The translations under genes were made by a program, and so were the position numbers. Below are positions 24,917 through 31,883 of a DNA stretch of 34,924 nucleotides, one piece after another. Under the pieces are notes generated by a model. That model saw only the letters and a program-made list of their open reading frames with translations. It was not told where the DNA came from and did no database searches. Each line of letters opens with the position of its first letter. The stretch's first letter is position 1. The stretch covers positions 1-34,924 of the forward strand of contig JAJRUP010000024.1 in assembly GCA_024277725.1 (NCBI GenBank). Direction: 5' to 3'. This stretch comes from a bacterium (lineage in GTDB: Bacteria; CG2-30-53-67).

Positions 24917-24947
24917 GCCCGAAGCCTCCTCTGACGAAGCAGCGCTA

Positions 24948-25013
24948 TTCGTAAATACGGCGGCACTTGAAGGCTGCAGGACAGCCCTCTCGGTGCGTCA
25001 CAATAATTACGAA
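24948..25013. repeat. Imperfect hairpin in the rplO-secY spacer
   Basis: The ends TTCGTAAATA (24948-24957) and TAATTACGAA (25004-25013) pair at nine of ten positions. Inside them GCAC/GTGC (24963-24966 with 24993-24996) and AAGGCTG/CAGCCCT (24970-24976 with 24982-24988, one G-T) extend the structure. It could be a small palindromic element or an mRNA control structure; there is no T-tract. Confidence 0.45.
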
Positions 25014-25031
25014 CAGGGCCTTAATGGTTTG

Positions 25032-25472: not shown

Positions 25473-25501
25473 CTTTCGATCCTTCAGGCACCTTCCGTCT
25501 T

Positions 25502-25653
25502 GATGGGCTCGTCAAAATTCTGATTTTCAGCGGCACAGCAAAAAGCTCCGGATGCAATGCACGAAGGTTTTCAGGGGTGCGCGTCCTTCACGATCGACCG
25601 CAGAGTACTCAAAACCCGGTTCGCACAGCAGACGGACTTTTTACGAAGCCATC
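25502..25653. mobile_element. 152-bp MITE-like insertion between rpmD and rplO
   Basis: The ends form a terminal inverted repeat: the plus-strand left end GATGGGCTCGTCAAAATTC and the reverse complement of the right end GATGGCTTCGTAAAAAGTC agree at 14 of 19 positions. The 6-bp sequence CGTCTT flanks both sides (25496-25501 and 25654-25659), as a target-site duplication would. Removing the element and one copy leaves a normal 30-nt rpmD-rplO spacer. It has no coding capacity, so it would be non-autonomous. It has the same length as, and related ends to, the element at 31732-31883. Confidence 0.75.
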
Positions 25654-25660
25654 CGTCTTC

Positions 25661-31731: not shown

Positions 31732-31883
31732 GATGACCCAGCAAAAAGTCACAAAAAGCCTTTTTGCTGGGCGGGGGGGAGCCTCCTCCCCCGCCATTTG
31801 AACAAAGTCCAAAAGGTTCCACCCCCACCCCAGGCCGGGGCTTACCCGCCCTCGGCCTGCTGATGACTTCTTACGAAGTCATC
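31732..31883. mobile_element. 152-bp MITE-like insertion between rplB and rpsS
   Basis: The left end GATGACCCAGCAAAAAGTC and the reverse complement of the right end GATGACTTCGTAAGAAGTC agree at 14 of 19 positions. Flanks ATCATT (31726-31731) and ATCCTT (31884-31889) match at five of six, like a decayed target duplication. Inside are a 12-bp stem CCCAGCAAAAAG/CTTTTTGCTGGG (31737-31748 with 31760-31771), a G/C-rich inverted repeat around 31770-31795 and a perfect 10-bp hairpin at the right end (31861-31870 with 31875-31884). The first two bases of the element complete the rplB stop codon. Its right end matches that of the 25502-25653 element at 17 of 19 positions. Confidence 0.72.

Follow-up and report, generated by a model that had tools for sequence, protein, structure and literature searches.

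The spacer between rpmD and rplO in a bacterial ribosomal-protein cluster carries a 152-bp segment that we consider, with a probability of about 90%, to be an old MITE moved in trans by an IS1182-type transposase. MITEs are described as elements of less than 500 bp that end in inverted repeats and carry direct repeats, the latter becoming less distinct as the element ages (PMC10969869). The segment, at 152 bp, lies below the limit of ~500 bp, lacks a transposase gene of its own, ends in inverted repeats and is enclosed by an exact target duplication, and it has many dispersed copies in the genome and an empty site in relatives. The repeat family, the target duplications, the empty sites and transposase genes with matching ends together bear out the non-autonomous transposon proposed in a preliminary description of this DNA.

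The 152-bp segment and its flanks

Positions are those of the window, i.e., the whole 34,924-nt stretch of DNA that was analyzed. The spacer is bounded upstream by rpmD (L30; 25661-25852) and downstream by rplO (L15; 25032-25472), both on the minus strand, and measures 188 nt, as originally described. Immediately before rplO lies a remnant of the original spacer with the ribosome-binding site GAAGGAT (25473-25495, minus strand), followed by the first copy of the target-site duplication CGTCTT (25496-25501), whose boundary was set independently by family homology. The non-autonomous element itself, a member of what we term family C, occupies 25502-25653 and is followed by the second, identical copy of CGTCTT (25654-25659). 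Its left terminal inverted repeat, GATGGGCTCGTCAAAATTC (25502-25520, plus strand), matches the right one, read inwards as GATGGCTTCGTAAAAAGTC (25635-25653, minus strand), at 15 of 19 positions; inverted ends had been recognized before, with the count given as 14. Removal of the segment and one repeat leaves the expected 30 nt (188-152-6) with GAAGGAT of rplO untouched. The preliminary description was also right that most gaps in the cluster are shorter than 70 nt, but it missed two others that are long and likewise contain repeats, namely 170 nt between rplB and rpsS and 115 nt between rplO and secY.

A scan of the window for perfect 6-bp repeats spaced 80-300 bp apart, with enclosed ends agreeing at no fewer than 14 of 19 positions, returned the structure at 25502-25653 as the sole case. 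In 60 simulated windows that kept the dinucleotide composition, the mean was 0.1 cases at this threshold, and there were none at 15 or more of 19. The segment and its CGTCTT flanks are not a chance structure. The open reading frames listed across the segment are frame extensions from the region of the neighboring genes, and none is internal to it.

A dispersed repeat family and its candidate transposase

When the host genome (2.9 Mb in 252 contigs) was searched with the segment, 23 matches were returned, so that the other copies anticipated earlier do exist; about ten of them span the greater part of the segment, with an identity of 72-78%. Allowing up to three mismatches, we found the end motif GACTTTTTACGAAGCCGTC 162 times in the host, compared with two matches for a reversed control pattern. 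Many of these 162 come from another family, family A, which is younger and 153 bp long; its copies are near-identical, so that contigs break inside them. The window copy scored 88.8 bits against a profile from which it had been left out, and the modal length of the family is 152-154 bp. Among 60 genomes searched, near and far, matches were confined to six from the host's own taxonomic family, and plasmid and phage collections searched with a family member gave no match.

Two-ended copies across the family are flanked by differing 6- or 7-bp duplications, in keeping with the transposon reading. In a sample of 30 distinct two-ended copies (110-160 bp) from fetched loci, 15 had perfect 6/7-bp repeats at their flanks and 22 had them when one mismatch was allowed, whereas left and right flanks paired across copies gave 0.7% and 4.7%, respectively; because these loci were chosen by their end motif and not at random, the percentages hold for this sample only. 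The duplicated sequence is not the same in all copies (ATGATT or AATCAT, AATTGT, AAAGAA, CTCTTT, ATTATT, AATCTT, CGTCTT and others), as expected of transposition and unlike a conserved regulatory site.

Some elements were arranged head-to-tail, with 5-7 bp between them that are a further copy of the flanking duplication. The host had five junctions of this kind, namely in L134 (contig C228, 1-330), L136 (C201, 100-300), L135 (C183, 1-290), at the right end of L133 (C22) and at C72:30395-30424, and one was seen in G001, a genome of the same genus. New copies of the family seem to land beside old ends. A solitary 22-bp palindromic end, GATGACTTCTTACGAAGCCATC, flanked on both sides by the same 6-7-mer, was present in L138 (host C27, 140-176) and L134 (C228, 140-168); it could be the leftover of a deletion between GTCATC repeats within family A.

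Genes with the Pfam domain DDE_Tnp_1 were surveyed in six genomes of the host's family, and two had family-type ends on both sides. One is a 607-aa IS1182-like gene in the host (C17:667-2603), lying between the ends GATGAACTCGTAACAAGTC and GATGGCTTCGTAAGAAGTC; the other is a 546-aa gene in G004, a member of another genus (C150:5798-7723), with ends GACGGCTTCGTAAAAAGTC and GATGGTCTCCTAAAAAGTC and flanks AATATT/AGTATT (5/6). The transposase domains are PF05598 and PF13751, and the best model for both genes was NCBIfam IS1182 (NF033551; cut-off 270 bits). The G004 gene exceeded the cut-off with 364 bits; the host gene, at 159 bits, fell below it, and we therefore call it IS1182-like, IS1182 still being its best family. 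The right end of the window element matches one end each of the G004 and host C17 elements at 18 of 19 positions. The host element is present as a single copy and showed no target duplication at its flanks. In a distant genome, G142, an element whose transposase is 40% identical to that of C17 occurs in three copies with ends of the form GACGG...AAAAAG and flank repeats AGCTTT, TAGATTT and AATTTAT (6, 7 and 7 bp); its ends match those of the window element at 10-11 of 19 positions, a weak similarity that counts solely as family resemblance. The length of the target duplication is likewise shared with the MITE, at 6-7 bp in the G142 copies and with a 5/6 match in G004. Hence the transposase with matching termini that had been suggested as a check was found in the host and in G004, and more weakly in G142, and from these ends we infer that the window element was mobilized by an enzyme of the IS1182 type.

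The remaining DDE_Tnp_1 genes considered as partners (host C151; G001 C20 and C28; G004 C28 and C73; G002 C32) were rejected, having no convincing pair of family end motifs. A transposase fragment on G001 C33 (L287, 1172-1334), situated beside another repeat, is 82-84% identical to the host C17 transposase over short pieces and is a decayed former source.

The element could instead be a MITE that was mobilized by a transposase outside the IS1182 family, for example one missing from the draft assemblies, which collapse or lose high-copy elements. Only one candidate gene remains in the host, and G001 has none bearing these ends, just fragments of a relative. Against this, the ends, their orientation and the 6-7-bp duplications coincide with those of IS1182-type elements in three genomes, and we regard another transposase as unlikely. 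Under the IS1182 reading, a DDE transposase of this type, supplied in trans, would recognize the 19-bp ends of the element, and a staggered cut would then lead to the 6-bp duplication (CGTCTT) of the spacer. The insertion would be tolerated because it left intact both the stop codon of rpmD and the ribosome-binding site of rplO, and transcription would presumably run through the insert without harm, since the decayed hairpin lacks a U-run and can be read through.

The same site in relatives and the palindromic fold

The rpmD-rplO spacer was compared with those of G001 (178 nt) and of G002-G005, from other genera of the host's family (48, 40, 13 and 40 nt, respectively). The latter four lack the element and provide the empty site that had been looked for. 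A search of named genomes with rplO brought up nothing closer than 62% identity. The G001 site is occupied by a decayed copy in the same orientation. On the same strand as the window copy, it scored 20.1 bits against a profile from which both the G001 spacer and the window copy had been left out, compared with 4.6 bits for the best of 500 shuffles. G001 also keeps GGAAGGATTGAACG, the counterpart of the rplO-proximal part of the spacer with its ribosome-binding site. Since a decayed version occupies the same site in a species of the same genus, the insertion is old, and it was most likely in place before the genus's two species diverged. This dating would be wrong if the G001 copy were a separate insertion into the same spacer, which the re-use of sites beside its own ends by this family and the loss of recognizable termini from the G001 copy would allow. 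The two copies, however, share not only the spacer but the orientation, and their alignment overlaps through the arm nearest rplO, so that we hold independent insertion to be quite improbable and prefer a single, old event.

The G001 and window copies match at 109 of 155 aligned positions (70%, with many gaps; shuffled mean, 63%), and in the same comparison the identity at four-fold sites in the flanking operon was 62%. The insert thus decays about as fast as silent sites, making a site-specific function unlikely.

The family as a whole forms a long imperfect palindrome. RNAalifold predicted 29 pairs, 12 of which are changed on both sides, from the same sequences that were then scored, and in an alignment combining two subfamilies (helix 3 being TTT:AAA or TCC:GGA) 97.3% of cells were paired; the covariation score of 0.203 was matched by none of 500 shuffles and by no slid version, with the proviso that, owing to the mix of subfamilies, a few ancestral events can yield many compensatory cells. 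These data make selection on the palindrome, as DNA or RNA, possible in active copies. A more specific proposal, to which we give little credence, is that compensatory change preserves the arms of the hairpin because the molecule matters in its folded form; if this were true, the hairpin might serve, for example, end recognition, the choice of targets beside palindromic ends or harmless insertion into operons, and the elements would be adapted to life within essential transcription units.

The same fold bears on whether the segment, whatever its origin, is a regulatory RNA or DNA element retained in the spc operon for its function, such as an attenuator, an RNase III site or a ribosomal-protein binding site. 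The palindrome kept family-wide by compensatory changes would suit such an element, as would the fact that a decayed relative persists at this site in G001 with its orientation unchanged. However, part of the palindrome pairs have been lost from the window copy, the rpmD-rplO spacer folds no better than its shuffles (z -0.79), an Rfam search of the segment gave no match at E values up to 1, and the element is absent from the other genera of the family. As the same-site copies, moreover, match no better than silent sites do, we judge a retained regulatory element very improbable. The pattern named beforehand as pointing to such an element, a segment with no other copy in the genome and conserved at this site in distant relatives, was not observed.

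Further insertions in the cluster and comparison with known elements

The ribosomal-protein cluster contains two more insertions. A second MITE, a 152-bp member of family A, lies between rplB and rpsS (31732-31883) and is flanked by ATCATT and ATCCTT (5/6, window orientation). It is younger than the rpmD-rplO element and has the cleaner empty site: G001, where the gap is 12 nt, and G002, G004 and G005 all lack it. In the rplB stop codon, TGA, the second and third bases are the first two of this element, which follows AAAGGAT; in its absence, the codons would be AAA GGA TAG. The third insertion, at 24937-25016 between rplO and secY, belongs to an unrelated high-copy repeat family with 52 host matches, and its site is empty in G001 (19-nt gap). 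Repeats have thus invaded gaps in the main ribosomal-protein operon of this bacterium three times independently, and one of the inserts now supplies the stop codon of an essential gene.

The third repeat family is common in related genera also. In the sister-genus ribosomal operons of G002 (L293) and G004 (L295), several gaps of 127-268 nt were seen (rpsJ-rplC, rpsC-rplP, rplP-rpmC, rpsH-rplF and rplO-secY), which suggest more repeat insertions; the rplO-secY gaps of these two genomes hold tandem-like repeats of other sequence.

A literature search on MITEs of Nitrospira and on MITEs in ribosomal operons yielded no direct precedent. Short palindromic intergenic elements that are co-transcribed with their neighbors are known as QMITE2 in Coxiella, Correia/NEMIS in Neisseria and ERIC in enterobacteria; they occur in other hosts and, going by the description in a review, are unrelated in sequence (PMC10969869). 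Within the IS1182 family, IS1272 of Staphylococcus replaces a target stem-loop, and palindromes are reported as targets of family members (PMC5678879). The elements described here share with IS1272 the transposase family and the importance of palindromic DNA, their 22-bp end being an imperfect palindrome and new copies being found beside old ends. They nevertheless produce 6-7-bp duplications, although IS1272, the best-studied member of the family, makes none (PMC5678879).

Closer parallels come from two other systems, both likened to ours by description only. Methanosarcina acetivorans carries MITEs of similar size (160-169 bp) that are derived from IS1182 and assigned to a partner of that family, ISMac2; their direct repeats, however, are 4 and 0 bp, and the host is an archaeon (PMC3852290). 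Chunjie of Geobacter uraniireducens, in the account of Chen et al. (2008) given in a review, is a high-copy MITE that carries direct repeats as well as terminal inverted repeats and has one copy inside an operon, the structure of which is left undisturbed; at 178-235 bp it is longer than the 152-154 bp found here (PMC10969869). The rpmD-rplO element is an ordinary, well-documented kind of mobile DNA, for which Chunjie and the IS1182-derived MITEs of Methanosarcina are the closest precedents.
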